Below, piece by piece: positions 1,320 to 40,040 of a stretch of DNA of 64,000 nucleotides; positions within the stretch are counted from its first letter, which is position 1; the number at the start of each line of letters is the position of its first letter. The notes beneath the pieces were generated by a model. The model had not been told where the DNA came from. It did not search any database and was given only the letters and a program-made list of their open reading frames with translations. A program made the position numbers and the translations under genes. This DNA comes from Nymphaea colorata (taxonomy: Eukaryota; Streptophyta; Magnoliopsida; Nymphaeales; Nymphaeaceae): the NCBI RefSeq assembly GCF_008831285.2, contig NC_045138.2, positions 30,413,934 to 30,477,933 on the forward strand, given 5' to 3'.

Positions 1320-1327
1320 GTGACACT

Positions 1328-2131: not shown

Positions 2132-2231
2132 GTTGGAGAGGCTTTTAGTTTGGGCATCTCACAATAGTTTATCATGTTGACTCTTTTATATAAAAGGGCT
2201 GGTATTACTTAGCTGCATGACAAAATCTCAG

Positions 2232-2470: not shown

Positions 2471-3137
2471 TGAATTCCATTTCTGTATGATTTATCTTCA
2501 AGAAGAGTTAATTAGTGTCCTTCTGTTTTATAGCTGGGCTAATTAGTCCAGTTACTCTTGTCACACATATGGATAGGCCAGATGGTAGAGCAGGTAATGA
2601 AGACTCATCAGAATGCATCAAGACATAAGATATAAACGCCAAATGATCCAATTCTGTTATTAATGTCATTGACAATAGTGCATCTGGCAACTTTTAATAG
2701 CGTGGAACCAAATTTTCTGGATGTTACTATTAATTTGATCATTTTGGGATGCTTCTATTAAAAGATGTTGCTGTTGCTTTCCTAAGTATATATATCTACA
2801 CTATCTCTAATATGATGATAGTTTTCATTAACCTTGGAATTTAGGATAGCTGTTTCTTAGCTACCCTTCAGTTGAACTCTTTTTTAAAAGGACTTCAAAA
2901 AACCAATTTTTGGTCATCCAAACACTAAAATCAGGTTTTCAAAACTCTTCAAAAAAATTGATTTTACAAAACCAGGCTTTGACAAAAACCATTTTTTAAA
3001 AGGGTGTATCCAAACACGACCTTCACTTTTTCAACTCTTTTTTTTTTTACGATAAGCAAAGGGTATTTTGGTCATTTTACACCACGTACACAATTTTGTG
3101 TGGGCAAAGTGTCCACGTAACCAGTTTCAATCGCCAG
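2471..3137. other. Non-coding, with a MITE-like remnant
   Basis: AT-rich sequence with no exon. Bases 2880-3030 contain CATCCAAACACT and TATCCAAACACGACC, hallmarks of the small GTTTGGAT-ended elements also seen at 5690-5950 and 14698-14991. Confidence 0.4.
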
Positions 3138-3404
3138 AGGTGCTGACACATAGGGTCCCTTGGCTCCCTCAGAAGCCAATTCCTTGCGTTCATTCTCAGC
3201 TGCTCCAAGATCCAGATCGAAATTCACACAAACATGATTCAGTCCTATCTTCTTGCCCACGCCCCAATAATATGGGCCGCAAAGGGGCACACCCATGACT
3301 CACCTCTTTCTCATTCTCTCTCTAGACAACATCTATATATATATAAACAAGAGCATCCAGCCATGGCGGCTTGTAGAAGTCTCTCTGTCTGAGTTGAGTT
3401 GAAA
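3138..3404 (+). promoter_or_regulatory. Promoter, TATA box and 5' leader with uORF of the first CslG-type gene
   Basis: A TATA element (TATATATATATAAAC, 3334-3347) lies about 60 bases upstream of the ATG. The leader contains an upstream ATG in a good context (CCATGG) at 3363, opening a nine-codon uORF MAACRSLSV that stops at 3392, twelve bases before the main ATG. The segment from 3138 is homologous to 11537-11824 upstream of the second gene, so each copy carries its own promoter. Confidence 0.7.
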
Positions 3405-6400
3405 ATGGAGAAGCAACCAGACCTCCCAACTCACACAGTGCAGGCAGTGCCACGGATTTGGTTCAATCGTTTCCATGCTGCAGTGTATAGCTGTGCACTC
3501 TTTGCCTTCTTCTATCACAGGCTTCTCTCCCTACTGCAAGCCACAACGCTGCTCTCCTTCACCTCCTTCCTCTTACTCACCCTTGCCGACCTTGTCTTCT
3601 CCCTCATGTGGGTATTGTCCCAGGCCTTCCGCTGGACTCCGGTGCGGCGCCGCGCCTTCCCGGACAACCTCCGGACCAAGCTCCCCGAGGCCGAGCTCCC
3701 GGCTCTCGACGTCTTCATATGCACCGCGGACCCCCTCAGGGAGCCGCCTATCGACGTCGCGAACACGGCCTTGTCGGCCATGGCATTCGACTATCCGACC
3801 GACAAGATGTCGGTATACGTCTCCGACGATGGCGGGTCGAAGCTCACGCTCTTGGCTTTCATGGAGGCGGCGAGGTTCGCCAAGAAGTGGGTTTCCTTCT
3901 GCAGGGAGCATAAGATAAGGGAGAGGAACCCGCAGGCTTACTTCACTAGCGCCAGCAACGGCGAGTACATGGTCGAAGGGTGGAGGGAAATGAAGGTAGG
4001 TGCGAGTGTTGCGGTTATGTGTTTCTTCCTGAATCGTTATGCATGGTTGTTTGGTAGCCGAGCTCCGTCGACGGCCATGGCCTTCTGCAGTCGGCACCTG
4101 TCTGAATGGATAAAATTTCATTGCATAAGTTACCAATATGGCCTGCTGCTGTCATCCGCTCAACAAACCGCCATGTTAATTTTCAACCCAGATCAGATTG
4201 ATTGACTGCTCTCTCCTCTCTCTGTGAAATCTTTTGGTTGTTTCTGTTTAACGTTTCGAATCCAGGAATCTTTTGGTAATTTGGTTGTTTCCGTTCAATG
4301 TTTCAAATCTGAAAACTGATCATTGCTAGTTTTCTGGATTATGAAAGGATATGTATGAGGAAATGAAAGAGAGGGTGGAGAGTGCAGTGGAAAGAGGGGA
4401 CGTCAACGAGGATCAAGTCATCCACGAGCATGATCTTACGGCTTTTCAGAAGTGGACGCCTGGCTTTTGTCGTAAGAACCATCCAACAGTTATAGAGGTT
4501 CTCTCTCTTACTTTTATGCTTGGTGTCCATGCGAATCGTATTTGACTTGGTGTTCTTTTCTATATTTTATTTGGTAAAATTATTGGGATTAAGAAACTTT
4601 GTCGTTTGCTGGAGGCACTATTAACTTGGTGCCTCTTGAACTACCCATGAGCCACTGGCCCAACCCACTGTAAAGAAATAATTTTTTGGGCCTTTTAATT
4701 TTTTTTATTGAAAGATACTCTTTTGATTGTTATCATTACACACCTTGGCTCAATTTTTATTGTTCCCAACGATACATATAACCTTGATATTTTACCTTCT
4801 CTAGGTGCAACTCATGACATTGATTTCTCTCTCTCTAAGGCGTACATAGCGCATCGTGAATACTATAGTTCTTTAATCCATGATAATTACATGTCACATG
4901 CAAAATCCTACAATGAAGGCTAAGAAAAATGAATATTCCTTAAGGGATCCTGTGTGTATTATTTTGATGCAATCTACAAACTCAAAAGCGGTGGCCTCCC
5001 AAATCTCATAAAAATAATATTCTAAACATAGGTCTTTGGTGGGCCGGCAAGTAAGCCAATAAGGTGGGCCCATGTCTGAGCCCAGCCTTTGGGAACTCCA
5101 GAGTGTTGGGAAACCAAATGTTCGAGGCATCAACACTCTATCATCTATACCTGACACACAAGTCACAATGTGGCAACAAAAAGCATACCCATTCGTCCGG
5201 TACGCGGTACCCAGGTACTCAATCCAACTCGAACCCAACCCCAGAAAAAATGAACTCAAGCCAACTCGATAATTTATCCCGTTGGCTCGATAAACCCCGG
5301 TGAGCCTCATAATGAGTTTTTTAACTTTTCTTATTAATTTTTATATATATTTATAATATCTTATTATGATTAATTATATTTATATAATTTCTTATTTAAA
5401 AAATATTTTTAAATGTCATCGAGTCAGGCTCAGGTTTTCGAGTCGGGTCAAGCCCGAGCTTAGGTTTTGGATGTCGACCCAGCCCAACTCATTATTGGGC
5501 AGGGCCGGCCTGATGCCAGACTTAAGCACTTTAAGCGGATGAGGAGTTGAGTGGAGACTTCAACCTTTTGCCGAGTAGTGAAAGACCCTCCTTTCTTCGG
5601 AAAATGAACTTATAGAGGGACGAAAGTCAGTGGTCTCAATATATTGAATTATCATTTACCCAATCACATTACTAGATCACCAAAACATCCATTTCAAGCA
5701 CGCTTGGATAACATCAAAGCTGGATTTTACTAAAACTCAGTTTTTAACTGAGCCGAGTTCTTGTAAGGGACTAGAAAAACTTAGCTTCCCCCCAGCTTTT
5801 CAAACAAAACTTATTTTTTTGCTTCAAATTTAGTTTTTCTATTGTCATCCAAACACTCAAACTAAGTTTTAAAAATTGGGTCGTCACAAACTTGGTTTTC
5901 ACAAAACCAAGTTTTTTTTACGTTTCATCGAATCACCTCGAAAAGGTTGAAAACAAAAAAGCACCATCTCTATAAGATTAAAATGCCATTCATTCAAGCT
6001 AAGTGATAGTGAACATTCGAATGAAGCTCATTTTCTTGTTATTGTAACAGTGGATTATTTTTCTGGCTTTTATTGATATACCTACCATTCCTTTTCATGT
6101 TAAATTCTTTATTGGGCATTCATGGCGTGCATCTTTCTGGGGCCAACCATACACATTGCAAGTGATTTGGTTTCATATCAACAGAACGGCATTGATGTGA
6201 GATCTCCTAAAGAGTGCAAGCTTGGCTTGCTTCGCATCGCAAAGCGCAAGCCCTTGACCTTTCCGTCATAAAGTGTCCGGTCCTTTGTTCTTGATGAGGT
6301 ATTGCGGACCTACAAACACTACCAAACAAACAACTTTCACTGGTCGGCAGAAATCAAACCGTCAATAAATAAATTGCACCGACGACCTGCCAACTTTCAC

Positions 6401-7437
6401 CGCCGGTCACTTGTTAAATTCCAAGTGCAAAAGCACTGGATCTAGGTCAGCTAAATATGTAAGAAATTATTTATTCAGTAATGTGAAGAGACAAAAATAA
6501 CAAACATAACAATACAACTTATAGTGCTACTATTTGGAAAGACAAATATTTGCTTTTATCATTTGTGAAAGTAATCTATTTCAGAACTTAATGTTGGGCA
6601 GGTGTTGTTAGCAGCAGACAAGGACGTGGATGCCACGGGCCATGCCATGCCAAACCTTGTATATTTGTCCAGAGAAAAGCGCGTGACTTCTCATCACAAT
6701 TTCAAAGCTGGAGCCCTGAACACATTGGTAAGTGGAAAATTGAAAAATTAAGGATGTTGATGGTGATGATGATGAGTATGACCATGACGATGTTGGTTTA
6801 GGCCATCTTGATGGTTATGATGGAAAAATTGTTTCGTCAATACAATACTAACTGATGATGATGATTGTTACATCATACCACGAAACCATTGTTCACACCA
6901 TCAATCATGGTCGTCTCTTGCTGAATTCTGAATCTCAAATGCAACAATAAACTATTTGACATGGAGCATCTGTTGTGTGAAGCTAAGGGTATCATCGGTG
7001 ATGAGTAACGCTCCCATACTATTGAACCTAGACTGTGACATGTACTCGAATGATCCGGCGGCACCATACAGAGCTCTGTGCTTCTTGCTGGATCCAGTTT
7101 TAAGCACCAATCTGGCTTTTGTTCAGTTCCCTCAGATCTTTCCTGGGATCAACAAGAATGACATCTACAACAATGAGTACAAGCGCCTGTTTCAGATCAA
7201 CCCATTGGGTATGGATGGTTCAGGAGGCCCAAACTATGTCGGCACCGGTTGTTTTTTCCGGCGTCGAGCTTTTGCAGGCAAGCCTTCATTGAAACCACAT
7301 CCAGAAATCATACTGGAGGGATCCTCCACGAACAATGGAGGAAGAGAGCCTATTTGGTCACAGACAACTTTAGAAGCAGCTCATCGTGTTGCAGGATGCA
7401 ATTACGAGCAGGGGACTGAGTGGGGCTCCTCAGTAAG

Positions 7438-7487
<50 letters not shown>

Positions 7488-8597
7488 AAACAACTACCGG
7501 TAAAATTAAGATAAATTTAAGTTTTGGGGGTCATGTTGCAGATTGGGTACAGGTATGGATCGTTGGTGGAGGACTTTTACACGGGATATATGCTTCTCTG
7601 TGAAGGGTGGCGGTCGGTGTTTTACAGTCCGGCGGAGCCGTCATTCGTGGCCGACTTTCCGATGGCCCTCAACGACCTGTTATGCCAATGCAAGAGGTGG
7701 GCGGTGGGGCTGCTGGAGGTGTCCTTCTCCTGCTTTAGGTGCCCACTTACCTTTGGGCTCCGCCACTCTGCCTCTCTCATTGCCGCCATGTCCTACGCCC
7801 ACTACTCCTTTTGGCCCCTGTGGTGCATACCTCTCACCATTTATGCTCTCCTCCCCCAGTTCACTCTCCTCCTTGGTCTTCCCATCTTTCCCAAGGTTCT
7901 CTCTCTCGCTTATATATAGTTTTTTCATCTTGATCAAATCACCATATGTCATTTCTAGTAATATGTTTTGATCAATTTAAAGAACTTAAGTGGCTATTAT
8001 GCACAACTTGTGTGCAAATTCAAAACTAATGTGAACTGTTACTTGTAGGCAACTGATCCATGGATTTTCCTCTATGTATATCTCTTTCTTGCCTCCTATG
8101 GCCAAGACATGCTCGACTACATCATGGAAGGTGGCACGTTGGCCAGGTGGTGGAATGAGCAGAGGATGTGGATGATCAAAGGGGTCTCCTCTTTCCTCTT
8201 TGGCCTTGTTGAGTTCTTGCTGCAACACATGGGCATATTCAGGTCAGGATTTGACATAACTAGCAAGGTTGCAGATGATCAGACTGCTAAGAGGTACAGG
8301 CAAGGTGTCTTCGAGTTTGGCGTCACTTCGCAGATGTTCTTCACCATCTCTGCTGCTGCTGTCATCAGTTTGGTGGCACTGGTAGTTGGTGCAGTTAGGG
8401 CAATGCTGCAGGGAGGTGGGGACGAGATGGCAGTCCAGTTGTTCATCTCTGGCTTTGTTGTGGTGAACTCTTGGCCTGTGTATGAGGGGATGGTGCTTAG
8501 GAGCGACGGTGGAAGGATGCCCAAGAGGATCACATTGTTCGCCGGGTTGGTCGGCTATGCCTTCTTCTTAATGGCAGAGCTTGCTAAGGAAAACTAG
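3405..8597 (+). CDS. Cellulose synthase-like protein, CslG-type (first tandem copy)
   Basis: A family-2 glycosyltransferase of the plant CslE/G/M group, a multi-pass endomembrane protein. Exons: 3405-3995, 4348-4497, 6602-6727, 6983-7432, 7542-7895, 8049-8597. All are phase 0 and total 2220 bases (739 residues), the usual length for CslG. Two N-terminal membrane spans lie near residues 22-42 and 50-74, and a cluster of C-terminal spans begins near 520. Catalytic motifs are intact: SDDGGS at 140-145, DCD at 306-308, VED at 448-450 and QCKRW at 488-492. Some CslG/CslM members glucuronosylate triterpenoid saponins (spinach SOAP5, legume CSyGT); the substrate here is unknown. Intron 3 (2.1 kb) holds repeats and intron 4 starts with a long CT run. 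The ATG was chosen because it begins the conserved family N-terminus. Confidence 0.9.
5180..5530. repeat. Dispersed repeat inside intron 3 of the first CslG-type gene
   Basis: GC-rich ends with GTACCCAGGTACTC on the left and repeated CGGGTCAAGCCCGAGC-type words on the right enclose an AT-rich centre. Similar architecture is seen at 15860-16165 in the second gene and, in part, at 50610-50730. It looks like a non-autonomous transposon family with no coding capacity. Confidence 0.5.
7442..7480. repeat. CT microsatellite beside a splice donor
   Basis: About 39 bases of CT dinucleotides begin nine bases after the exon 4 donor GT at 7433. The second gene has a shorter CT run at the same place (17285-17312), so the repeat predates the duplication and has changed length. 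Confidence 0.9.
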
Positions 8598-8790
8598 TGT
8601 CGTGCAAGAGAGAGCGAGAGAACATGAAATCCTCTATTTGTAGGCCTTTTCTGTTGCAGTATTATAATAAAAGCAAAGCAACAGCGTGGTTATTGACTAA
8701 TATCTCTCCCTCTCTCGCTTTTGATAAAGTTTGCTTATATAGTACTGATGGACATAACTTAACGGCTCAAAACTGGTTGTAAAGCTCTTA
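8598..8790 (+). other. 3' UTR of the first CslG-type gene
   Basis: An AATAAA signal lies at 8666-8671. The segment to about 8790 is homologous to 18414-18705 after the second gene, showing that the duplicated unit includes the 3' UTR. Confidence 0.6.
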
Positions 8791-8795
8791 TATTC

Positions 8796-10650
8796 CAACT
8801 TGAAGGATACGGCTGCTTGATGAAAGCAATACGGTACAACAAGGCAAAAAACTTAGGCATAAAACACATTTACTGGAATCAGCACACAGGATGCAAAACC
8901 AGTGATTTGTTCAAAGTGGGTACTCAATGTAAGGAGATTCTACCATATTATTTGATTCTTTCCCATGTATAAAATAGTTAGATATACAATGCCGTATATA
9001 AATGTCTCACAAGAGTAGGAGAATTATAGATAACAGAAAATTTTCCGCTAGCTCCTGCGGTTCTCCTCCTCTTTTCTGCTTTCCCTGTTTTGCTTCACAT
9101 TACTCTGTTTTGCTGCTCTGTTTCCAGATTTTTGCTCAATCATTCCAAAGTTGTGCCAGTTCCTGCACTTATTCCTTCCTAACAATCAAATCGTAAAAAA
9201 CTCACATATGAAAAGAACTAAACGAAATGCCTAAGTCCATGGGTGAAAGCATGTCTAATGCACAGATGGAGCACAATGATCATCTAAAGGCTGGCCACCA
9301 CCACGACCGAAGGGATCCGAGGTTGCCCTTCGGTGGCACATTTCCGGCTAACGTGTTGGTGTTTCCTACAGCAAAACCGACAGTTAGGCCGAGCTGCTGC
9401 CACCATTATAGCTATAAGCAGAAACATTTCCCAAAATGTAGAGGACCAGAAAGAGGGGAAGGGTTCTTGCAACTCACCGGTAATGGAACCAACAATGATA
9501 AGGCGCTAGGTCAGGCAAGAAGGAAATGGCCGAGGTCGCTTGTCCCAATGCCCAGTTCAAAGCCTGCCGGAGCAGGTTTTGTGAAACACACTCCACGAAA
9601 CCCCACCTGCCTCCGGCCCTGCTGCAATGCAAGGGAAGGTGTAATAAGAGAAAGAGAGCACCCAACGACTCATCTCACAAGGGGAAGAAGAAGGAGGGCG
9701 CCTTGCTGCTCATGCAGTTGGTGATGGAGGTTTCACCAGCATCCAGCCACCAGGTGGAAGTTACCTAGGTATGTCAGTTTTTACCCTGGTAACTTTCAAC
9801 CAAAACGACCCGATTTCATAGGGTATTTTTTCCGGCGTTTGTTGGAGGTTGGAAAATCTACTGTGTTTCACCCGGTTATCAAACGCCCCCTCATGCATAT
9901 GTTTGAAAATTTATAATGGGCAAACACCCAAAAAAAGCTCAATGATAGAAATTACATGGCTTCCTGCTACAATGGTGGAAAACCTTAACCAAGAAAACTT
10001 ATCCCTGCATGGAAGCTGAACAAGCTTCCTGAATAATTTCCCAGACTTGCATTACAAAGAGACGAGATTCTAGGAGAATTTGTGTGGTAGTGACTAAGAT
10101 TGCTGATGTTTTGAATATAGCATGATACCATTAGCAAAAACAGTAGTAGCACTACATTCTGAGACAGGAGTTGAACAAATTTATGTCACCTGTGTGGTTG
10201 CATTTGGTTGGAGGCGTCTATGCACACAAACAGAAGGAAAACAAATTCGAAACATGCCCTAACCAAACTTGTTGACATATACCAGTAGGCCATGAATTCT
10301 ACATCGATCAATTGCTTTGAAAGAGTCTAGTAAAAGACAGATGTCCTCAAACAGGATTGTCTCACTTCTTGTTTATGCTTTTGTTATATAACATTTCTAA
10401 ATTTTTGTTTGCTTTTTGATATATAAAGTGGTGCATCTTCACAGACATATATATAATATTAGATAAATATATGGTAGTACACATGTATGTATGTACATAT
10501 GTATCTACTTACATTGCACCAACACCAATTTTTTCCGATGCACCCACAGCTATCAGACAGATTCAGAGTGCCTAACTACAGTTTAGAACCTAGACAGCCA
10601 ACATAAATGGGAAAAGCAGAGAATATCAAATTACTAAGTTTAAATAGTTC
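8796..10650 (-). pseudogene. Truncated relic of the RRM gene 3' tail
   Basis: Blocks here match, in order, the 3' flank and last intron of the intact RRM gene: 8796-8855 with 21305-21365, 9905-10110 with parts of 21775-22865, 10135-10340 with 23195-23450, and 10480-10645 with about 23660-23845. A signature is CTGCTTGATGAAAGCAATAC in both. The segment corresponding to the terminal exon (21577-21680) is absent, replaced by 8870-9900. Homology stops about 15 bases short of the place matching exon 5, so no RRM exon survives. This is duplicated tail DNA, not a working gene. Confidence 0.75.
8870..9900. other. Unidentified segment in place of the lost RRM terminal exon
   Basis: About 1 kb with no match to the RRM gene tail that flanks it. 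Bases 9230-9765 are GC-richer than the surroundings and have overlapping open frames on both strands (plus strand 9227-9724; minus strand 9284-9472 and 9474-9665). None resembles a protein family. The right end reads CCGGTTATCAAACGCCCCC, typical of the end of a transposed element, so this may be an insertion that carried captured gene sequence. Confidence 0.4.
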
Positions 10651-11143
10651 GTTGTGATGACTGCTTTCTAGTGACTATAAGTTTCAATCGAGCAATATCT
10701 AGCATCTGTCTAATTTAAATTTTAAACTCAATAATTGATGTCAGATGTCAAATAATTGTTAAATGGGTAAAAATTTAAAATTTTGTCAAGTAAACGACTA
10801 TAAAACATCTCTAAAATCACATTGAACAGTCTATCAAGCCATAAATTATTGTTAATACGGACAAACATTTCAATTTTAGCCATCTGACAATATCTATTAA
10901 CTGTATCTATTAACTGATGATCGCAAATATGGATGGTGAAAGTTGTCTTGTCCCCACACTAACAATCTTCTCATTTTATCGATGATCACATTCCCATGGG
11001 AAATCTAATGCTTCACATTTTTAAGCTACATTACATATATGCCATCTAGCCTCAAGTGGGGCCTATTACGTGTACCCATAGGAGTATGTAATGACCAAAA
11101 TACTTTTGATAAAGTGACAAGAAGAGTTTTGAAAAAGGATAAA

Positions 11144-11196
<53 letters not shown>

Positions 11197-11536
11197 AAAG
11201 TACACCTCATGATAAAAAAATTTTCCTTTTATTTTGTTGCGTGCCAACTCGATCTATTCTCATAACATCTTAAATCACACATGTTTTTTTGCAGTTTTGA
11301 AAAAACATATAACAAAAATACAGGTAGAGACTTTAATTCATATAGCTAGTCTCTACTCAACAACACACCAAATTAATTCCTTCCAAGTGCAAGAAACTAA
11401 ACGAAATTTCTTGTTTTATTCCGATAAAGAATCTTCAAATTTTATCATGGGAATAAGTTTCAAAAGGAGAGAAACTTATGAAATATATTACCTATAAATC
11501 TTTTGCATATCAATGGATGCATGATTGGTCACCGGG
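10651..11536. other. Junction DNA between the two duplicated units
   Basis: AT-rich and without coding signal. A TA microsatellite spans 11152-11191. Neither the first unit's RRM relic nor the second unit's promoter homology extends into this block, so the duplication junction lies within or at the edge of it. Confidence 0.5.
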
Positions 11537-11824
11537 AGCTGCTGACACATATGGTCCCTTCGCTCCCTGAGGGACCAATCCCCTGCTTTCATTCTCAGAT
11601 CCAAATAGTCGCTCCAAGATTCAGATCCAGATTCAAACAAACATCATCCTGTCTTATCTTCTTGGCCATACCCCAATCATTCGGGCTGCGGAGGGCTAGA
11701 CTAGAAAGTTGCACCCATGACTCACCTCTTTCTCATTCTCTCTCTAGACAACATCTATATATATAAACAAGAGCATCCAGCCATGGCGGCTTGTAGAATT
11801 CTCTCTGTCTGAGTTGAGTTGAAA
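11537..11824 (+). promoter_or_regulatory. Promoter, TATA box and 5' leader with uORF of the second CslG-type gene
   Basis: A TATA element (TATATATATAAAC) lies at 11756-11768. The leader again has an upstream ATG (11783) opening a nine-codon uORF, MAACRILSV, ending at 11812; one residue differs from the first copy. From about 11712 onward the sequence is nearly identical to the first gene, while 11537-11711 differs from it by many substitutions and indels. Confidence 0.7.
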
Positions 11825-14800
11825 ATGGAGAAGCAACCAGGCCTCCCAACTCACACAGTGCAGGCAGTGCCACGGATTTGGTTCAATCGTTTCCATGCTG
11901 CAGTGTATAGCTGTGCACTCTTTGCCTTCTTCTATCACAGGCTTCTCTCCCTACTGCAAGCCACAACGCTGCTCTCCTTCACCTCCTTCCTCTTACTCAC
12001 CCTTGCCGACCTTGTCTTCTCCCTCATGTGGGTATTGTCCCAGGCCTTCCGCTGGACTCCGGTGCGACGGCGCGCCTTCCCGGACAACCTCCGGAACAAG
12101 CTCCCCGAGGCCGAGCTCCCGGCTCTCGACGTCTTCATATGCACCGCGGACCCCCTCAGGGAGCCGCCTATCGATGTCGCGAACACGGCCTTGTCGGCCA
12201 TGGCGTTCGACTATCCGGCCGATAAGATATCGGTTTACGTCTCCGACGACGGTGGGTCGAAGCTTACGCTCTTGGCTTTCATAGAGGCGGCGAGGTTCGC
12301 CAAGAAGTGGGTTCCCTTCTGCAAGGAGCATAAGATAAGGGAGAGGAACCCGCAGGCTTACTTCACTAGTGCCAGCAACGGAGGGTACATGGTCGAAGGG
12401 TGGAGGGAAATGAAGGTAGGTGCGAGTGTTGCTGTTATGTGTTTCTTCCTGAATCGTTATGCATGGTTGTTTGGTAGCGGAGCTCCGTCGACGGCCATGG
12501 CCTTCTGCAGTCGGCATCTGTCTGAATGGACAAAATTTCATTTCATAAGTTACCAATATGGCCTGCTGCTGTCATCTGCTCAACAGACCGCCACGTTAAT
12601 TTTCTACCCAGATCAGATCTACTGCTCTCTGTGAAATATTTTGGTTGTTTCTGTTTAGTGTTTCGAATCCAGGAATCTTTTGGTAATTTGGTTGTTTCTG
12701 TTTAATGTTTCAAATCTAAAAACTGATAATTGCTAGTTTTCTGGATTATGAAAGGATATGTATGAGGAGATGAAAGAGAGGGTGGAGAGTGCAGTGGAAA
12801 GAGGGGACGTCAACGAGGATCAAGTCATCCACGAGGAAAATCTTATGGCTTTTCAGAAGTGGACGCCTGGCTTTTCTCGTAGGAACCATCCAACAGTTAT
12901 AGAGGTTCTTTCCATCTCTCTCTCTCTCGCTCTTTTGCATGTTTGATGTCAATGTTGTGATTATATTTCACTTGGTATTTTTTCCTATACTTTATTTTGT
13001 GAAATAGTTGGGATTACGAGACTTAGTTCGATGCATAAAAGCCCTAACGCTTTTCCTCTGCCCTTATAATTCTGTTTTACTTTGAGTTTCAGAAGCTCAA
13101 GCTAAACTCAAAAAGTTTGAACTCGATCTATAAAATAAGTTCAACTCGACTATACAATTTCAGTTTGATCTCGAACTTGCTTAACTCATTTTTCTGTTTT
13201 TTTTTTCTTTGAACTCATTTAACTCGTCAAGTCATTTGCTCATTTAACTAATTCAATTATAATGAACCGGTTTTACGTATTGTAATTGACCCAACTTTAA
13301 ACAAGTTGAGTTTTTAAAACTCGAACTCGTCTCATTTAACATTTTGAGTATACATTTAAACTTGAGCTTAACTTATCGAGTTTTTTCGAGTGACTTTGAG
13401 TCAAGCCTCGACTCGTTGTACCGCCCTAAGAGCCACCCTACCATCCATCCACTCACCGAACCAATTGCACACACTTTTTGAGAGTGAGTTGAGTGCATCG
13501 TGATGTTTTGCAATATGTAGAAAAAAAAAGATTGGAAAGGTGGAGTTATTTGATGTTTTTTAAAAAATAAATATGTTTTTGAAAACTTTTAATTTTATCC
13601 TACCTCGAATTCCTATTTTTACTAAGAGTATTCTGATCATTACACCCTTATACACTAACTTTTTTGTAGCAGCCGGTGCATGTAGCCGACTTGGCTCCTG
13701 AAAAATATTTTTCATAGCATATTTAGTATGTAACTTTGTATAACTTATAAGCCATTGCACAAAAAACTTGAATTTTTACAAAGTATAAGTGCAACTCAAA
13801 ACATTGATTTCTCTCTCTAAGACATACATAGCGCGTCGTGAATACTAGAATTATTTAATCCATAATAAACACATGCTTTATGCAAAATCGTATAATGAAG
13901 GCCTAAGAAAAATGAATATCCTTTAAGGGATCCTACGCGTATTAATTTGATGCAATATTCTTCACGCAAAAGAAGCCGGGCACCGGAAAAGGTCAAATGC
14001 GGTGGGCTCCTAGATATGATATGATGATAATATAATATATTGTAAAACATGGGAATCGAGAAGCCGTGTCCATCAAAATATATGGGTCCCCAAGCAAGCC
14101 AATAAGTTGGGCCCATGTTTGAACCCAGCTTTTTTCGTAGGACGGCCATTGAATTCGATACCGGATTCAAAGTGAACAGTACAAAAGGATTAGGATTATG
14201 GACATGAAAGAACTTTGTTTATGAAAAATGACTGAGACTTACTCAATAAATAGGGATGCCAATATATCTCATTTGTACAAGGCATTCGATCGAATCATTC
14301 TGAAAAATCACAACTAAAAAATTGAATCGGATTTGAATGTAAGAAATGACATGTGATCATATTGGAAATCCAATTTGGAATCAAACCTTTATAATTGGAT
14401 TCAGATCGGATTTAGTTTAAATAAATATCATATATCCAATGTTGTTCTTACCTTTTGAACATTCACTGGATGCAGTTCAAAATTCGGATATGAATGTAAA
14501 AGTAAGATTTAGATTGTGAACAATTCTGAATTCTGATTTGGATGTGGCTTTTTTTCATTCGTGTTTGAATCAAAATTTGAATCTGAGTATGAAAATATTG
14601 GAAAAAACAGATATAGTTAAAGTATATCTTACTTGAATCCTATTCATCGACATCCATATCAACAAACAATTAACTGAACCCGCCATCTTCAAATTAAGGG
14701 GGTGTTTGAAGGACACCCCAAAACTCATTTTTTTAAGGTAAAAGATGACTTTGCTTTCAAACTAAACTTCGTTTCATGAGCGTTTGGATGACACGAAATA

Positions 14801-17734
14801 TGAGTCTTGCCAAAACTTGATTTTGGCAAAAACTATTTCTCTAAGGGAATGAACAACATGGGCATTTTCATAAACAATGTGTTTTGATTTTATTATTCAA
14901 ACATAAAAAATAGTTTTTCATTAAAAAAAAAAAGTTTTAAAAGACTAGTTTCCATAAGCCCATTTTTTTATTATATCATCTAAATACCACCTAAATGTTT
15001 GTGCCCAGATAGAAAGATGCATCTACAGCCTGGCCTCTTCCATGAGCGCTTGAATGAGAGGACCATATGGCCACTTTGAAGAAATGACCAAAATATCTTT
15101 CTGACAAGAACGCTAAGAAAAGACCGGGAAAAAAATCTACAAGGACAAAAGTTTGGAAGATAGTTCAAACAAGTTTTGGATGTAAAACATAATGTTGCCT
15201 CCAAAGAGGTGAATGAATAGTATGTTCGACCCCACTCTCACCGCCTTCTGTTGTTTCTCAGTGAACATTCAAATCAATCAGCTCATTTCCTTGCCAAGAT
15301 CTTTGTCTTGTCACTGTAAGTACATGATCATCGTCTTCTGCGATGCCTATCATTCATTCTTTATTGGACATTCATGATATGATGCCCATCCTTCCAGAGC
15401 CATCCTCCGTGGTTGGTTTCAAATCATTTGGAGGGGATGGACGTCATATGAGTGCGTAACTTGGCCTGCTTTGCATCGCAAACCGCATGCCTTATTGGGT
15501 AGCTTGATTTCGACCCTTTGGTACCAAAAAATGTCCGCACTGCATGTCACTGCAAGTATTCCAGTGATAAATTGCAAGTATTCCGGTGATAAATTTGTGA
15601 AATGAGGAAAAACCTTACTAGAGCTATTTTGAGTAACATAAGAACCGCTTAAGAAGTTACCATGGTGACTTCAAGTAAGGTTGGACATCGGAATCGTGTC
15701 AGGCCGGCCTGAGCTCCGTTTTGATGGCCGGACCCAGTGCCCAGCCTTAACTTTTAGTAGCTTACATCACATAACATGAACTAGCACTTGAAGTTCAAGT
15801 ATTAAGCTCTTAAGTCATATGAGCACTTCAGTAAGCCTACATAATTGTGCTGTCATACTTAGACCTGGACATTGGGTCTGGTACCCGATGGGTACGGGTA
15901 CCTGGTACCCAGTCATATCTTGCCAGGCTGGGTCAGCCCCAAGGGAGCTCAATTCGGCTCGATAACTTTTAAATATTAATTTTATTAATAATATATATTT
16001 TATTATTAAAAATAGATTTTATCTCAAAAATTATTTTATATTTTTTAAAAATATTTTTTTATTATAGCCGGACCAAGCCAGGCCAGACCGAAGCTCGTGT
16101 TTTGGGCATCGGCCCAAGCCCGGGCTCAAATTTAGGACATCGGGCTGGCTTGGCACGGCTCATATCATCATGAATCATATTGTTCATTCCATGGAAGTTT
16201 GAAAAATAGGTTTGACACATCTATTTGTTTCCCTTGTCGCCTGGCGTGAGCTTGAATGGGCAAAACTTTAGCTTTGTTAACGTCTATCAAGAAGAAATCA
16301 TGCTCAAGCCATGCCTTTTATAGTCCTACACATACGTAAGACGAATATTTGCCACTATCATTTGTGTAAATGATCTATTTCAAATCCTCATGTTGGGCAG
16401 GTGTTGTTAGCAGCAGGCAAGGATGCGGATGCCATGGGCCATGCCATGCCAAACCTTGTATATTTGTCCAGAGAAAAGAGCATCACTTCTCATCACCATT
16501 TCAAAGCTGGAGCCCTGAACACATTGGTAAGTGGAAAATTAAGGATGATGATGACGACGACCATGATGGTGTTAGTTTAGGCCATCTTGATGGTCATGAT
16601 GGAAACAGTGTTTACTCATCGATGATGATGATCGTTACATCATACCATGAGCCCGCTGTTCACACCATCAAACACTGCAGAAAACAGTAAATTAGTCCAC
16701 TTAAGTGAAACATGGGTAGATTCTTGCATGTGTGCAATCACACTGTACTTGGTCGTCTCTTGCTGAATTCTGAATCTCAAATTTAACAATAAACCATTTG
16801 ACATGAAGCTTCTGTTGTGTGAAGCTAAGGGTATCATCAGTGATGAGCAATGCTCCCATACTACTGAACCTAGACTGCGACATGTACTCGAATGATCCGG
16901 CGGCACCATACAGGGCTCTATGCTTCTTGCTGGATCCAGATTTGAGCACCACTTTGGCCTTTGTTCAGTTCCCACAGATATATCATGGGATCAACAAGAA
17001 TGACATCTACGGCAATGAGTATAAGCGCCCATTTCAGATCAACCCATTGGGTATGGATGGTTCAGGAGGCCCCAACTACATCGGCACCGGCTGTTTTTTC
17101 CAGCGTAGAGCTTTTGCAGGCAAGCCGGCATTGAAACCGCATTCAGAAATCATACTGGAGGGATCCTCCACCAACAATGGAGGAAGAGAGCCTATTTGGT
17201 CACAAAGAACTTTAGAAGCAGCTCATCGTGTTGCAGGCTGCAATTACGAGCAGGGGACTGAGTGGGGCTCCTCAGTAAGGACACATCTCTCTCTCTCTCT
17301 CTCTCTCTCTCTAAAAAACTACACGGTCAAGTTAAGATAATTTAACTTTTGAGGGGTGCTGTTGCAGATAGGGTTCAGGTATGGATCGTTGGTGGAGGAT
17401 TTTCACACGGGATACATGCTGCACTCTGAGGGGTGGCGGTCGGCATTTTACAATCCGCCGGAGCCGTCATTCCTAGCCGACTTTCCGATGACCCTCAACG
17501 ATGTGCTGTGCCAGTGCAAGAGGTGGACGGTGGGGCTGCTGGAAGTGTCCTTCTCCTGCTTTAGGTGCCCACTTACCTTTGGGCTCCGCCACTCTGCCTC
17601 TCTCATCGCCGCCATGTCCTACGCCCACTACTCCTTTTGGCCCCTGTGGTGCATACCTATCACCATTTATGCTCTCCTCCCCCAGTTCACTCTCCTCCTT
17701 GGTCTTCCCATCTTTCCTAAGGTTCTCTCTCTCC

Positions 17735-17803
<69 letters not shown>

Positions 17804-18413
17804 AAGTAGCTATTATTGCACAACTTGTGTGCAAATTCAAAACTAATGTGAACTGTCCTTGTAGGCAACTGATCCATGGATTTTCCTCTATGTATACCTC
17901 TTTCTTGCCTCCTACGGCCAAGACATGCTCGAGTACATCATGGAAGGCAGCACGTTGGCCAGGTGGTGGAATGAGCAGAGAATGTGGATGATCAAAGGGG
18001 TCTCCTCTTTCCTCTTTGGCTTTCTTGAGTTCTTACTGCAACAGATGGGCATATTCAGGTCAGGATTCAACATAACTAGCAAGGTTGCAGATGATCGGAC
18101 TGCTAAGAGGTACAGGCAAGGTGTCGTCGATTTCGGTGTCGCTTCGCAGATGTTCTTCAGCATCTCTGCTGCTGCCGTCATCAGTTTGGTGGCACTGGCA
18201 GTTGGTTCTGTTAGGGTATTGCTGCAGGGAGGTGGGGACGAGATGGCAGTCCAGTTGTTCATCTCTGGCTTTGTTGTGCTGAACTCTTGGCCTGTATTTG
18301 AGGCAATGGTGCTTAGGAGCGACAGTGGAAGGATGCCCAAGAGGATCACATTGTTCGCCGGCTTCGTGGGGTATGCTTTCTTCTTCATGGCAGAGCTTGC
18401 TAGGGGAAATTAG
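11825..18413 (+). CDS. Cellulose synthase-like protein, CslG-type (second tandem copy)
   Basis: Same six-exon plan as the first copy: 11825-12415, 12755-12904, 16401-16526, 16825-17274, 17368-17721, 17865-18413. Exon lengths match the first copy exactly, giving 739 residues. SDDGGS (140-145), DCD (306-308), VED (448-450) and QCKRW (488-492) are kept, so it should be an active membrane glycosyltransferase. Differences cluster in exon 3 (six of 42 residues, for example AAGKDADAMG against AADKDVDATG) and around the VED motif (VEDFHTG against VEDFYTG), which could shift substrate choice; that is inference. Intron 3 has grown to 3.5 kb through insertions, including a Tourist-like MITE. Intron 5 carries a 61-base TA run absent from the first copy. 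Confidence 0.9.
13080..13430. repeat. Degenerate repeat in intron 3 of the second CslG-type gene
   Basis: Rich in AACTCGA and GAGTTCAAC-type words in both orientations, a pattern common in plant repeats that end in ACTCGAGCTCG-like termini. The first gene has no equivalent at this position. Similar words occur at 29340-29460. Confidence 0.45.
14225..14680. repeat. Degenerate AT-rich dispersed repeat
   Basis: Contains repeated GGATTTGAAT and GGATTCAGATCGG-type words and an end reading CATCGACATCCAT. Sequences of the same character occur at 44165-44450 and 48400-48760. No coding capacity is visible. Confidence 0.4.
14698..14991. mobile_element. Tourist-like MITE (PIF/Harbinger type) in intron 3 of the second CslG-type gene
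   Basis: 294 bases with imperfect inverted ends (left GGGGGTGTTTGAAGGACACC; right end reading ATCATCTAAATACCACC), flanked by TAA at 14695-14697 and 14992-14994. A TAA/TTA target duplication is the hallmark of PIF/Harbinger elements. It is internally AT-rich with no open frame. The first Csl gene lacks this insertion at the matching place, so it probably arrived after the duplication. Confidence 0.65.
15860..16165. repeat. Dispersed repeat inside intron 3 of the second CslG-type gene
   Basis: GC-rich ends (GGGTACGGGTACCTGGTACC on the left, GGCCCAAGCCCGGGC on the right) enclose an AT-rich centre, as at 5180-5530. The two copies sit at different distances from exon 3, so they may be independent insertions. 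Confidence 0.5.
17740..17801. repeat. TA microsatellite in intron 5 of the second CslG-type gene
   Basis: About 30 TA dinucleotides lie 18 bases after the exon 5 donor. The matching intron of the first gene has only a short TATATATA tract. Confidence 0.95.
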
Positions 18414-18705
18414 TCCGTGTAAAAGAGAGAGAGAGACAGAGAGAACAAGAAAACCTCTATTTGTGAAGCGCACAGTTACAGCGGTTTTTTTCTCTAATGT
18501 TATGACGAATAAAGACATAAGGAGAGCTAGCTATGTATATATATATATTGTAGGTTTTCTCCATTGCAGTATTACAGTGAAAGCACAACAACAGCTGGGC
18601 TATTGACTAATCTCTCTCTCTCTCTCTTCTTATGATAATGTTTGCTTATATATAGCATTGATAACTTAATGGCTCAAAACTGGTTGCAAAGATCTTATAT
18701 TCCAA
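18414..18705 (+). other. 3' UTR of the second CslG-type gene
   Basis: AATAAA lies at 18508-18513. The segment matches the first copy's 3' UTR up to a shared end at CTTATATTCCAA; beyond it the two units diverge. Confidence 0.6.
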
Positions 18706-18807
18706 ATTAATGGAGCCCAAGTTGTTTTTATCAAATGTGTTCAGCACTTGAAAAGCTTAGGATGAGCTGATATCAAGTTCTTGTTATTTTTATACAAATA
18801 ATTTTTA

Positions 18808-19056
18808 ATGAACCAGGGAATATTGAATTGTTTATCACTAATTGATTTTTCGCATCTACCAGAAAAACCTGTTTATGGTCCACGTGATTCACAAGTAGAT
18901 CCTCTCAAGGAAACATGTGGATCACATGGACATTCTTATTTCAAGGATGAAACGCACTCGGAAAATAAAGAAGAAAAGTTTTCTCGGCTAACGAGTGGAA
19001 GCAATCGCTCCGTTTTGTGCGTCATGAGCATGAGTGATTATGGTCTTGCATCCTAA
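18808..19056 (+). pseudogene. Coding-like fragment of unknown family
   Basis: An 82-codon frame (a possible AG acceptor at 18816-18818) ends in TAA at 19054-19056. Its peptide is hydrophilic and mixed (for example VYGPRDSQVDPLKETCGSHG) and reads more like protein than the surrounding DNA. No family is recognised and no neighbouring exon was found, so it may be a relic carried by a transposon. Confidence 0.25.
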
Positions 19057-20850
19057 ATAACATCAGAATCCCCCGTCATCATCAAAAGTTCCTCTCAATG
19101 CAACTGCAGCACAATTTTGTAAAATTGAAATATTGGGTGCTATCAGTTAAGATATGAATTTCCATAGATCCAATTGTATATGGGACGTGAATATAGACAT
19201 GCGAATTCTGCTTAACGTTCAAAACTTCATGTATCATTTACAGTAACTGTTTACAGCAAGTGCAGAAGCATCTTAGAGCTATCATTTTGCATAGCTCATG
19301 CTACCTAGTGGTCCCTTGAATGTTCCGAACAAGCACAATTCAGATGCAAAAGTCATGGTTAAAATTGGAGCAGAAAGCTACAGGCAACTGATCTTCCTGC
19401 AAAATCCGTAAAGGAATGTTGATAAGCTAAAGCACTTTCTTAATTATACTGAATCAGCTGAGTTAATGGGACAAAAAGCCAGATGAATCTGAGGGAGGAT
19501 GTTGTGCAACTATAGTTTTGCAGATCAAGCAGCGCAGCTTAAGCACATTAGAAAAGAAAAGCAATTAGATTGAACCCCAATACCAAATTGGGGCCTGCTT
19601 CCATCATCGACGAGTAACAGCTTCTTCAGCTTCTGCTGTTCCTCTGAATATCCAATACTTACAGTTGCTAATTTCTGCCAAACCAAACTACAACGGAGCT
19701 GCTTGACAGTCATATTCAACAAGAAGTACCCGTTCAATGGCTCTCTAAGCCTCGAATTTTACAGTAAAATTTGACATGCTACTAGCAGAGAAAGGAAGCT
19801 CGAATTTGTAATGTACCCAAACATGGTACTCAGCACGAGAAAAAAAGCCCATATGTGGTGGTATTGACAGATGGGATACCAAGCACAGTGAATATTCGAT
19901 ATTCCACATGGTATAGAGTAACTTGAAAGCCTCACTTACTTTATGGTCTCGCAAGAGCAAAATAAAAGTTGTACGATCTACAATTGAAGCTGACTGTGGA
20001 ACCATGGCAGCTGGGATGGCAGTGGTATTGTAGGTTCCATATTATGTCACATGGATGTGGGTACTGGTGCGGTACAGGTACAGCGGTGTGGATTTGGCAG
20101 AGCAATGTATATAAATATATACCTTATATATATAACAATCCACAAAAGTTCTCAAAATTAAAGAAAGAGGAGAAAAATATAGAAGCTAGGTAAAAGGAAA
20201 ATAAAAAGATGGGAAAAATCAAAATTAAAGAAAAAATAAATTTGAAAAGATAAATTTTAAAATACAGCTATACCCAAGTACCCGTGTTGCCATAACCGCA
20301 TACAAACATGGATACTTGGCCATATCACATGTACCTGTGTGACATAGGTTCAATATCAAATTACAGCACTTCATAGGCAAGTTAAGCAATCAGAATTTAG
20401 TGCTGTAACTCTCTCCACAAGTCCGAAGCTATCATGAAAAGTGAAGCATGTAAAATTAGATAATTCGCATAAGCATATTCATCTATGGCAGACTTTAACA
20501 CTTTCAGTTCAAAATACTGGTATTTAAAAGGAAATCGGTCCATTTCATCTCACATAGTTTAGGCAGGAGTAGTAAGAACAAAAGTTGGTCTAGTGAAGAA
20601 TAGAACATAACCAACATCCATTGCTTGTTTTTTTTTTGTTTAATCTCTATTTAACATTACCGGTAGGTAATGTTAGTTTTTCTAGCTATCGATTTCTAGT
20701 ATGTATTTATACCATTGTCAAGAGTACAATTATTGGGCTTTCACCAATAAGTTTCTCTTGGTTATTAATCAGAAAGTTTGTTTTTCTAGGAAAATTTTTG
20801 GAAATAAAAAAGTTAAAAATATGCAAACAAAATTGTGGGTTATTTATAAA

Positions 20851-21130
20851 TTTCCTTACAAAAAATTTAAATAAAATTTCAGAATAGTTATAAAAAGATA
20901 TATTAAAAGTAATATCTGAAAAGTTCGTGATATTCTTGCGACAAATTTAAATAGACAATATTTTCAATGTATCATGATTCATTTCCATGCTTTCCTTACA
21001 AAAAATTTAAATAAAATTTCAGAATAGTTATAAAAAGATATATTAAAAGTAATATCTGAAAAGTTCGTGATATTCTTGCGACAAATTTAAATTGACAATA
21101 TTTTCAATATATCATGATTCATTTCCATGC
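20851..21130. repeat. 140-base tandem duplication
   Basis: Copies at 20851-20990 and 20991-21130, both starting TTTCCTTACAAAAAATTTAA, differ at about two positions. This is a recent duplication in the unit-B-specific segment. Confidence 0.9.
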
Positions 21131-21576
21131 TTTTCCTTTTTAAAATATAATACCGTAATATTTTGAAAATACTGCCAATATTTGTGACTGTGACTTGTAA
21201 TTTGTACAAACAATCCCTCACACAAGGCCTGGTTAAAACGGTCCACCTTCTATGCAGAAAACTGAAAAGTGAAACATGAAACAGCTATCTGCTAGAAGAC
21301 CAAGAAGAATTGGAGGATATAACTGCTTGATGAAAGCAATACGGTACAACAAGGCATAAAACTTAGCCATCTGAGTTGATTTCGTTAACAGACTTAATAA
21401 GCATCTGCTTTACATCAGCTTGATGTTTCCAAAAGAAAAGTACAGAAAGCATCTAGCTATTTCTACCTATACTTTGCAAGTTTCCGTAATGGAAATTGCG
21501 AACAGGAAAAATCAGCAAGAAAGATGGACCCAAACAACCTCACATTGCAGGAGGATCCCCTGAACAAAAGCAGCAG

Positions 21577-24500
21577 CTAGAGAGCATTATTCTGCAGCCT
21601 ATCATGGGGTCGAAAAGGAAAACGAGCAAACTGAATCCTCAAGACTGGTGAATCTGGCTTCTTATCATCAAACCTATATCCTGCCAGAGAGAAGCAACCA
21701 GAACTAAGCAGAAAATAGAAGGGGTCTCTTCCCAAAGAAGATGCAATTCACACCGTACCCATGTCTTTGAAAATTTATGACATGCAAATACCAAAAAAGG
21801 TTCACTGGTACAAATTATAAGGCTACCAACTGACACCAAGATATCACAACTTCCTGCTACAATGTCATAAAAAAACAGAAAAGGTTGCATATCAGAAGCC
21901 ACCATATTGGCCATCGTTAAAATAATCTGTTTTTTTTTTTTAAATTTGTTTCTAAATAAACTCATAAAACAGGCTGTAATGCCTCATAGAGCGGATACAA
22001 TGTAAATCGGGTCCATATCAGCCAAATAATGAAGGGGACTGTACATGTCCCACTGCATTACGGCACATCAGCGAAATGATATGCATTGGCCAATACAGGC
22101 TAATATACATCATTTTCTACAACTCTGGCCTGTCATAAGTTGGAGCTTTGAAACCAACACTGATGGCGCAAGAATACAATTTCACATATTAGACTTAGAA
22201 AACTATACAAAATGGTAGTTTTCTTTGGCACTCAAAGAAAGTAGGGTGACACCGTAACAGCAAGCAAATGGTGAAGGAGAAGATAAATTGATTGATACTG
22301 ATGTTCAGATTTAAGAAACAAATGAATGGTTCAGAGGCTTATGGAGAACCATAAATAAAGTGAACTTAAGATTTTCTAAATACTAAAATTCTCTTATACA
22401 TTTCAGTCCCCATAACTTGTCAACCTACATGCCTCATATACACTCCAAGGATTTGAGAGTCCTTACCTTCTATTAAATGCAGGCAAGTGGCATCTTAATT
22501 AGTCAACTCCCAAAAGCTTTCTTCAAAACCTCCTAACCTTTTAACAACCAAGTATCAGAGCATGTGGAAGATGCCCACAAATCTCTAACTTTTGGTAATG
22601 TTATAAGATCCCTTTTCCAATTTGTATGAACACCTAATACATTTAATGGGCTGAAAGAACAAGAAGATTCCTAACAAACACATCCATCACGAGGACTAAG
22701 TAGGTAGCCATCAATGTTGGCCTGAAAAGATGGAAAACCTTAACAAGAAAACTTATCCCTGCATAGAAACTGAACGAGCTTCCTGGATAATATCAGAGTT
22801 ACATTTCAAAGAGAATAGATGCTGGGAGAAATTTCTGCAGTAGTGACTAAGATTACTGATGTTTTGAAAATATCATGACACCATTAACATTTTGAAGCTA
22901 GTTGACAATATCAACAAAATATCAGGATATTTTAAAAATATCATGAGAAACAAAAATATCACAATAGCAGCACCCAGAGATACTCCCAAAATCTAGAAAA
23001 AGAACTTAGCACTGGGAGCAAATCTTAGCATTTAAAATTTAAGATTTTTAAACCCCACCTCCTGTCACCCAAGCGCCCTTTGAGTGCAAATCTCAACATT
23101 TATTAACACAGAATTGGAAAGAGATTTGACAGAGAAGGCACACCTCCTGCCAAGCCAGGGAAGAGAGCACCAGGTCAAAAAAAAAAACTTGCAAAAACAG
23201 TCGTAGCACTAGTGATCCAACTAGTTCTTCCTACTTGCTGAGATTGGAGTAGATCAAAATTTTGTCACCAGTGTGATGCATTTGGTTGGAGACATGTATC
23301 CACACAAACACAAGGAAAACAAGTTCCAAACATCCCTAAAACAAGCTTTCTTGGCATAAACCACCAGGCCATGAATTGTATCCTTACATCAATCAAATGC
23401 TTTGAAAGAGTCTAATAAAAGACATTAAAAAATGCCCTCAAATAGGATAACCAATTAAGAAAGCAAGAGGTGGACTATAGATGAAATAGCCGTCAATACA
23501 GATAGCGGCAAAGTACAGCATAAAATCATAGATTCATTTCCTTTCACTTCTCGGTTTATGTTTTTGCTATATAGCATTTCGTTTTGATATTATGAAATGG
23601 TGCATCTGCAGACACCTATACAGCATTACATACATATATGGTAGTACACACACATACATATACATATGTATGTGTTTGCATGTATATACGTATGTATATA
23701 AGTACATTGCACCAACACTAATTTTTTCCGAAACAGTGCACCCACATGCATCAGAGAGATTCGGAGTGTCTTACTATAGTTTAGAAGTTAGAACCTAGAA
23801 AATCAACATAATTGGGAAAAGTAGCAAACATCGAATCACTGAGTTGTAGTAGGACATACCTTGAAGAGCTTCCAAAGCAGTTGCTGCACATTTTTCATCC
23901 TTGAATTCCACAAAGCAAATAACAAAAGCTTTTTCACCCAACTGCAATCAAATTAACAAATGTGTCATAGGTGACAAAAGTAAGATATAAATAACTCAAC
24001 CAGGCACTGGTGATTAGTTGAAATTAGACTAGCAATAGCAGCTACAAAATATGAATGCTTGCAATCATGATAATGAAGAACATTCAGAGAAAACAATTAG
24101 TAGGTTTCTTTCTACAAAATACTAACCATTGGTGGAGAATTTACACCATACTGTCTATATGCATGAGCCTATATGTATATGTGCTGGGGGTATATACACC
24201 ATGGGTACAGAACCAGGTTGGGGGCTTTTGGAATCAACAATATTGCATAAGGATTGCGTTTGGAAAACCCCAACACAGTCACCAATATTCTTCTCAGCAA
24301 TTGGTTGCCAAGTTCTAACAGTTTTTCATGGCAAAACATTGGGAAGATCATGGAAATTTTAAACTTGATGAATATAAGAACCAAAAATGGTTATTATTTA
24401 TTAATTTTTTCTTGCAAAACATCATGAAACAAGTGCAAAAGCCTTCTGGATACTTGAGAGAAACAAAATCAGAAAAGGAATCACATGCTTAAAAGTACGA

Positions 24501-27500
24501 GAAAAAGGAACTTTGTGAAAAGTTCAGATAATATCCAACATCTTGGAAAAATATTTAAGGGGCATGAAAGGTTCAGTCTTGACGATATTTTGAGAATATT
24601 GGGATATTTTACCAAAATTATCAGCTGACTTTAGAATGGCTTACTTGGGTATTTTCAAAATATCAGAGTAAGAGTAGTGACCATGATCACCAGCACCCAG
24701 GTTGCAGATTATCTAAAATGGAAAGCAGAAGTTAACCAAGAGAAATTTCCCCATATTTTACCAAGTGAAATTATACTAAAATTATATGTTTCCATGCATA
24801 AACAACAACCAGAGAAAGGCCACAGCTGAAAATAGGACAGGAAATAGTACTACAAACCCGTCTACACTCCTTGTGGATCACTCTTATTTCCTTGAAGCCA
24901 ATAAATGGGCGGAAAAGATCTGAAGAATATCATTGAGGAATTCCAAAAAGGATATTAAAAATGAAGTACAGATTATACTTAGAAGGCAAGTAAGACACCA
25001 AAGGATACGAGACACTTCTCTTCTTGTGCAGTCACTTGGAAGTCCTTCTACAAATAGAATGTTTGTGCACTCAGAGAGAACATCAGATTTTGCAAGAGAA
25101 TGCGCTCTCTCAGAGAGTACCGGTGGAACTGCAGAATCTATGCCTAGTAGATCTCGTCTCCTGTTGAGCAGAAATTGATCATCAAATGAATTTGACAACC
25201 CTGCCAAACTGGTTCCAGCATCAACTCCACCTACTCCTGATCTAGGAAGGTCACCAATACCCATAGCATCAAAATGGTGAGGAGTAGATTTTAATGATGG
25301 AATCTGGTAATATGCATACAAAGTTAGATACTATGCCACATGATTTCCAAATCTAATCTGAAATCTGAAGGTAGAAAGACAAGGCAACACATCTCAATTA
25401 CATTGTTGTGGCCGAAGTCTGAAGAAGATAGAGGTAGATCACCAGCTCTCCACAAGTGTTGGCCAGCAAATGAGGAATTTTCAGAGGTCGAGTATCCAGG
25501 AAAATTAGCAGAAACACCAGCTGCATCAAGTTCTCGTCCAGGTGGTTGAAAATTATCTGTTAGAATATGCAAAAGAAAAGATGCACTATATTTGTTAGAC
25601 CAAAGTACAATTTTGAAATAATACAATGTGCTCACGATGAAGCATTGCAAGCAATTCACATTTAATCAAATCCATCTACATCAAACTGCTGTAGTGAAAT
25701 GAAACGAATAACTAAGCAGATTTCCTAGTACAGAAATATGTTAGGATAATTTCCAAATTGCCACCACAAAGACACAAGTTCAAAAATGAATATACATTCT
25801 TTTTTTTTCTTTTTATGCAGAAAAATCTTGTTATGCCTAAGCTAGAAGAACCAATAGCAGATTTGCAGTAAAATCCCAGGCATGCCATTTAAATATTTAC
25901 TAATCACATTTTTTTTTCTTCAAACTTTAGGCTCTCTGCTGCATAATCAGTTGACCCAGTTTCTTTTGAGGAGATGCTTCCAAATGCCATAAGCACTGCA
26001 AAACCAGGTATGACTCCATTCATGAGATGGTTTAATTAACCCAAGACACATGGATAATAAGTACGGTAACTCCCAAACTTTTATCTATATGAGACAAAAT
26101 TAAAATATATTTATTCTGTAAATTTAGGTGAATGATTGGATACTAGCAAATAGTTAGGTGCTGTTTTCAAATGCCCCTAATGTCAACTACCAACAGTCCA
26201 AACAGAGCAACTAGCTGGTATCACTTCTCTAGTGTTATAGCTTTTTTGTAGTTTTCTCTTTGTATTTCACATGTTTTCAAATATTTTCTTGAAAAAAATG
26301 AACTTTATGGTACTTTTGTCATTTTTCTAGTTCTATGGTTTTCTTTAGTTTTTCTTCTTTTTTTGGTATTTTCATAGGTTTTCTACACATTTTCCCAAAA
26401 ACATGAACTATATGTTTTGCTATGTTACAGCACGCTTGCCAAACGCAGGTAGTAGATATGTATCTAAAATTTTGGCTTCATTGTCCCAATGGTGACATTC
26501 AGGAACAGTTGAATTAATATATTTAATTTGTTTCTTAATAACATTGAAGATAGTAAAAACTGTGATATCCAGAAGTTCCCATTGTCATATAGCTGCAACC
26601 AGCAACCATTATTCAGAGGGTGGGGCGAGTAGAGGAATTTGATCATGCTTCTTGTTCCAGTTCGTAGAGCAATCCAGCAAAGATTCTCCCAGCCATGACA
26701 AAGACAATGCAGATACTAATCTGCCACCTCTTGAGATGGAATCTTCTCATGATGTTTTACCTTCCCTGGCTCTTAGGCCTTTGACAGATAGGGAACAACT
26801 CCAGTCTGCCATTATTGTGGATCTTCCACTCAAATGTCTCTAGTGTGAAGCTCAACCTAGTAATCTCCGCTTTCCTGTCTTTGAATAACCTGATCTCGAG
26901 TCTGTATCTCCCCATATTAGCCTACACTGGAATTGGTAGGTTAGACATTTGAATAGCACTTATCCTTTCCATTTAATGGTTGAGTTTCTTCACTTTTAGT
27001 GGCATTCATTGCCTACATCTTGAAACAGCTTCCACACCTGGATGACTATCTAGACCTGGACCACAGATCTTGTATTAGATAGTAGGTTGTAAGGTCACCA
27101 ATCATCAAGGAGGGTACTAAATAAGCTATGTTTATCTCGCAAGACACCACTTTAATGTATTTTGTGGTAGCACTTTACAACGTAAAGTTTCTTTTAGTGC
27201 TGCGTTTGACCATCTTCCCCTTCAGGTGAGAGTTTTGAAGTGGGACGTAACCAATAGCATGATAACCTTATCTGTTGTGCACAAGAAAATAAGATGTAAT
27301 TGAACTCGCCCAAGAAAGCATAGCAGCTGTGAAACCAACACTTTTATTAGAAAAATAAACCAGGCTAACTTTCATTATCTCACTCCCAGTAAAGCTGTTC
27401 ACCAGGAAATTCATGCCAACAGTCATCAGCTGTACAAGCAGAGATTTAGGCAAAGTAGATCATTTCTCCTCTGAAATTGTTATAGGATAGGCCAGAGTAT

Positions 27501-39971: not shown

Positions 39972-40040
39972 CCAATTCCCTCCACCTCCGATTTCGCCGC
40001 GTCACCCCCCAAAAGCCAATTTCTCGTCCAACTTCAAGAA

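Follow-up and report, generated by a model that had tools for sequence, protein, structure and literature searches.

Tandem duplication of a Csl gene and part of its convergent RRM neighbour in Nymphaea colorata, with a 5' end that differs little between the copies

How did two Csl genes come to stand side by side in Nymphaea colorata with a scrap of an RRM gene between them, and how did their 5' ends stay so much more alike than the rest? The stretch of DNA that was analysed, 64,000 nucleotides in length and called the window here, belongs to a contig 44 Mb long, in a genome of 408 Mb. The earlier note had claimed a direct segmental duplication, and self-blastn of the window on the plus strand bore this out: among matches of at least 60 columns, 10 colinear blocks joined unit A (3137-10640) to unit B (11536-23845), the first pairing A 3137-4602 with B 11536-13027 (89.8%, E 0.0) and the last A 10362-10640 with B 23544-23845 (69.6% as gapped by BLAST, E 1.2e-37). 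These blocks were used in place of a MAFFT alignment of the full-length units, which misplaced the tail of unit A because of the inserts. Both the E values and a shuffle control, given below, ruled out similarity by chance. Two colinear units in direct orientation that are not a genome-wide repeat are what a tandem duplication predicts, and the sequence supports a direct duplication of the Csl gene along with part of the convergent RRM gene. The shared parts lie in the same order, as had been proposed, although intron 2 is common to A and B in short pieces only. At the left end the units share about 150 bp of promoter at 80% (3138-3289, plus strand, pairing with B 11537-11711; 121 of 152 sites identical).

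The Csl genes themselves are both open, as the earlier note had read them. Gene A (3405-8597, plus strand; exons 3405-3995, 4348-4497, 6602-6727, 6983-7432, 7542-7895 and 8049-8597, with GT-AG borders) and gene B (11825-18413, plus strand; exons 11825-12415, 12755-12904, 16401-16526, 16825-17274, 17368-17721 and 17865-18413) each have six exons, introns that are all in phase 0, and 739 codons plus a stop, with no internal stop. The protein of gene A matched Pfam PF03552 with 461.5 bits, above the curated cut-off of 24.7 (the Pfam scan was of Csl A only), and both proteins matched solved plant cellulose synthases, with which four motifs align: VSDDGG, LDCD, LVED and QCKRW, found at the same places in both copies (residues 139, 303, 445 and 488). 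We take these to be the catalytic motifs D, DxD, ED and QxxRW of the cellulose synthase superfamily, to which the Pfam score and the four motifs assign the pair, and enzyme activity is predicted from them for both copies. They may be CslG-type, the label used in the earlier note, by a general resemblance to such proteins. The two proteins differ at 65 of 739 residues (exon by exon from the first: 8, 5, 6, 11, 12 and 23), with 46 of these differences in exons 4-6. For the gene taken as a whole, dS is 0.149 and dN 0.040 (dN/dS 0.27), so both genes seem to be under purifying selection and appear to have been kept open by it; dN exceeds dS in exons 2 and 3 alone (0.051/0.037 and 0.070/0.054), where there are just 1 and 1.5 synonymous differences. 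No further Csl match was found within 70 kb either side of the window, which rules out a larger Csl cluster in that region, the array having two members there.

Downstream of gene B lies the convergent RRM gene, whose 3' part (21577-25556, minus strand) was read by eye as exons 25402-25556, 25009-25303, 24858-24919 and 23860-23941, followed by the final coding exon at approximately 21577-21680; the last four exons, when joined, gave 51.5 bits for RRM_1. No other RRM coding match was seen in the window plus 70 kb on each side. It had been claimed that only unit B runs on into this gene, and that a dead RRM tail lies between the Csl copies; unit A was indeed found to contain no RRM coding exon, and its tail (9896-10640, minus strand) consists of non-coding pieces of the last RRM intron. 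Three blocks of the tail match RRM intron DNA (E 1e-43, 1e-43 and 1e-37), and its best score is 175 bits, where none of 500 dinucleotide shuffles scored above 32.8. A genome search that passes over very common words returned 5 matches for 9905-10650, namely the tail itself, three places in unit B and a stretch of 49 bp on a different contig; with four of the five at its own locus, a common repeat is ruled out. Thus neither outcome that the earlier note had named as fatal to its claim, a tail without similarity to unit B or a tail that is a common repeat, was encountered. Similarity stops at B 23845; between there and the penultimate RRM exon, whose edge is at 23860, lie 14 intron bases, where about 15 had been given. 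A shared RRM 3' flank and last intron had also been claimed, and this held for the intron pieces and for 61 bp of flank: the remnant at 8800-8860 (minus strand) matches B 21310-21370 just beyond the last RRM exon (90%, E 2e-16), and is probably RRM 3' UTR. The last RRM coding exon itself has no counterpart in unit A, a loss that the earlier note missed.

In place of that exon, unit A holds 1.03 kb of its own (8861-9895), which matched neither B 11536-26300 at E 0.01 nor anything in the 204-kb region at E 1e-6. Unit B in turn has 2.6 kb between its two genes that self-blastn finds absent from A (18715-21309), including two tandem copies of a 140-bp unit (20851-21138) and a dispersed repeat of about 310 bp (about 20043-20356), for which a genome search gave at least 39 further sites (43 listed matches, with 40 of 327 candidates scored). 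Between the units lies a spacer of about 0.89 kb (10641-11535, about 890 bases) that matches neither 1-3137 nor 23846-26300, which rules it out as an extension of either the left flank or the RRM gene; it carries a dispersed short repeat of about 80 bases (about 11077-11155) beside a (TA)20 run. Neither the spacer nor the DNA private to unit B is a mobile element throughout, only the parts at 11077-11155 and 20043-20356 matching dispersed repeats.

The spacer bears directly on where the duplication ended. A simple tandem duplication would leave no filler at its junction, and here about 0.89 kb of unrelated DNA parts the end of A from the start of B, so the spacer would be a later insertion, or filler, or a replacement of further duplicated sequence. 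The earlier note had placed the end of the duplication in RRM intron 5. Similarity does end there, which upholds that part of the claim; the original right end nevertheless stays uncertain, since the spacer matches neither flank and fits equally well with a filled junction or with a larger duplication later trimmed. Under the latter, the whole RRM gene would have been copied and the left copy cut down by deletion and insertion to its last-intron pieces, a course of events that we regard as possible but doubtful. It would account for a tail that abuts DNA without a match in the RRM gene or in the left flank, and for a tail that had already shed the last exon and other pieces; a single break inside the intron, however, requires fewer steps, and no RRM coding exon is to be seen between the units.

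It might be asked whether the pair is real, as a direct repeat on one contig, which is what is seen here, is the usual look of a haplotype-joining error. That two haplotypes were joined end to end is very hard to credit: silent divergence is near 18%, each unit has different inserts, and RRM coding sequence was found once, on a contig 44 Mb long.

The divergence between the units proved to be far from even, and here a feature emerged that the earlier note had missed, a probably homogenised 5' part. Corrected divergence was 0.238 (JC) in the promoter, 0.009 in the 5' UTR and 0.058 in intron 1, and then 0.188-0.315 in the alignable pieces of intron 2, 0.127 in intron 3, 0.170 in intron 4, 0.323 in intron 5, 0.361 in the 3' UTR, 0.105 in the 61-bp piece and 0.139-0.261 in pieces of the tail. 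A scan of silent sites, confined to alignable segments and so to the smaller part of intron 2 and to DNA outside the unmatched inserts, delimited a low-divergence segment at A 3293-4488 (plus strand), comprising the 5' UTR, exon 1, intron 1 and almost the whole of exon 2, with 27 differences in 560 sites inside it versus 384 in 2148 elsewhere; its log-likelihood ratio of 36.2 compares with a permuted maximum of 10.8 in 100 permutations. The longest identical run, of 225 columns, was reached in none of 10000 permutations, and the longest run of silent sites, at 88, in 1 of 10000; runs of silent-site identity beyond those of permuted data are what gene conversion leaves. In the alignment the left border is sharp and falls at the start of the 5' UTR, which differs at 1 of 113 sites versus 31 of 152 in the adjoining promoter. 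The right border is not firm, since exon 3, which lies beyond it, likewise differs little (at 1.5 of 29.0 synonymous sites).

An unusually strong purifying selection on the 5' UTR, exon 1, intron 1 and exon 2, as regulatory sequence, could in principle produce such a pattern with no conversion at all, and we consider this unlikely. Regulatory elements can sit in 5' UTRs and first introns, which lends the idea some plausibility, as does exon 1 having the fewest protein differences for its length (8 of 197). Against it, divergence shifts abruptly at the border with the promoter, and it is low at synonymous sites too: there are 12 differences in 164 such sites of exons 1-2 versus 54 in 306 for exons 4-6 (Fisher p 0.002), and the first 60 codons have none in 44.7 sites. 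Non-coding sequence behaves in the same way, the 5' UTR and intron 1 (the latter with 19 differences in 339) differing together at 20 of 452 sites and introns 3-5 at 77 of 456 (Fisher p 6.5e-10). As fourfold and intron sites are affected alike, conversion is favoured over constraint.

Outside the segment silent divergence is itself uneven (JC 0.105 to 0.361). Three of its components agree: the tail (115 of 694, JC 0.187), introns 3-5 (JC 0.191) and exons 4-6 at their synonymous sites (54 of 306.5, which a hand calculation puts at about 0.20). Such agreement is what a single event that copied both the scrap and the gene would give. In the history that we consider probable, there was one tandem duplication, the 5' part later underwent gene conversion, and the RRM scrap decayed. 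The repeat order, the open frames and the uneven divergence are there to be read; from them we infer that the duplication was a single event and that conversion, rather than constraint, shaped the 5' part. The duplication would have copied the Csl gene, about 150 bp of its promoter and, from the convergent RRM gene, the downstream end. Of the RRM sequence, only non-coding remnants would have been kept on the left, later without the last RRM exon, and the right copy would have stayed joined to the intact gene; to tell donor from copy takes an outgroup when the two stand in tandem. Conversion between the two would then have overwritten about 1.2 kb, from the 5' UTR to exon 2, leaving the 5' ends nearly identical; the divergence of the original event may survive in exons 4-6, introns 3-5 and the tail. 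One might go further and imagine conversion that repeatedly resets the 5' UTR and N-terminal part while the catalytic and C-terminal membrane parts diverge toward different products; if true, expression and membrane entry would be kept alike, giving a shared control end and two enzyme ends, but this we hold to be quite improbable.

The probable history has a practical side. Neutral intron scrap copied in the same event as a gene would be a clock that gene conversion has not reset, and the whole-gene dS of 0.149 would give too young an age beside the value of about 0.19-0.20 for exons 4-6 and the tail, a dating pitfall that is a useful caution for studies of the Csl family.

Other parts of the window have repeats and genes of their own. 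Just upstream of the RRM gene there is a second, older direct duplication (26229-27409 and 35164-36404, 73-76%), with no further copies within 70 kb either side, and self-blastn also gave a 97-bp tandem pair at 34403-34594 (96.9%) and a direct repeat of 317 columns joining 62599-62913 with 63430-63732 (77%). On the minus strand, two overlapping open frames lie at 38515-40001, and the frame at 38515-39651, which matches DDE_Tnp_4 with 119.3 bits, may encode a transposase of PIF/Harbinger type or a domesticated relative. Pieces of a protein kinase gene lie at 54320-56202, also on the minus strand (PF00069, 105.2 bits for 54320-55168).

How does this locus compare with those already described? 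One parallel is with the CSyGT / CslM glucuronosyltransferases of saponin synthesis (PMC7669905), which belong to the same superfamily and suggest a possible function for a CslG/M-like enzyme; that paper itself sets CslG apart from CslM, and genes A and B are likened to CSyGT by superfamily only. A full-text literature search, with most subscription journals outside its coverage, found no paper that appears to treat gene conversion among Csl genes, and the word "conversion" is absent from the main text of PMC9062648. As to the duplication, the locus resembles the imprecise tandem duplications set out in PMC3449122 in that its ends ignore gene borders and part of a neighbour is left behind; it departs from the partial duplications described there in that the partial copy is without coding sequence, so that no new exon structure is expected. 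As to the genes, PMC9062648 reports CslB, CslE, CslG and CslM as usually arranged in tandem arrays of 2-4 genes. Like those, the pair consists of open Csl genes of the same kind that stand side by side and point the same way, and it differs from them in having two members within 70 kb each side, scrap of a neighbouring gene and an uneven 5' part. Since tandem Csl arrays are reported there as usual, the pair looks to be of an already known type, and the events that formed it look ordinary ones.
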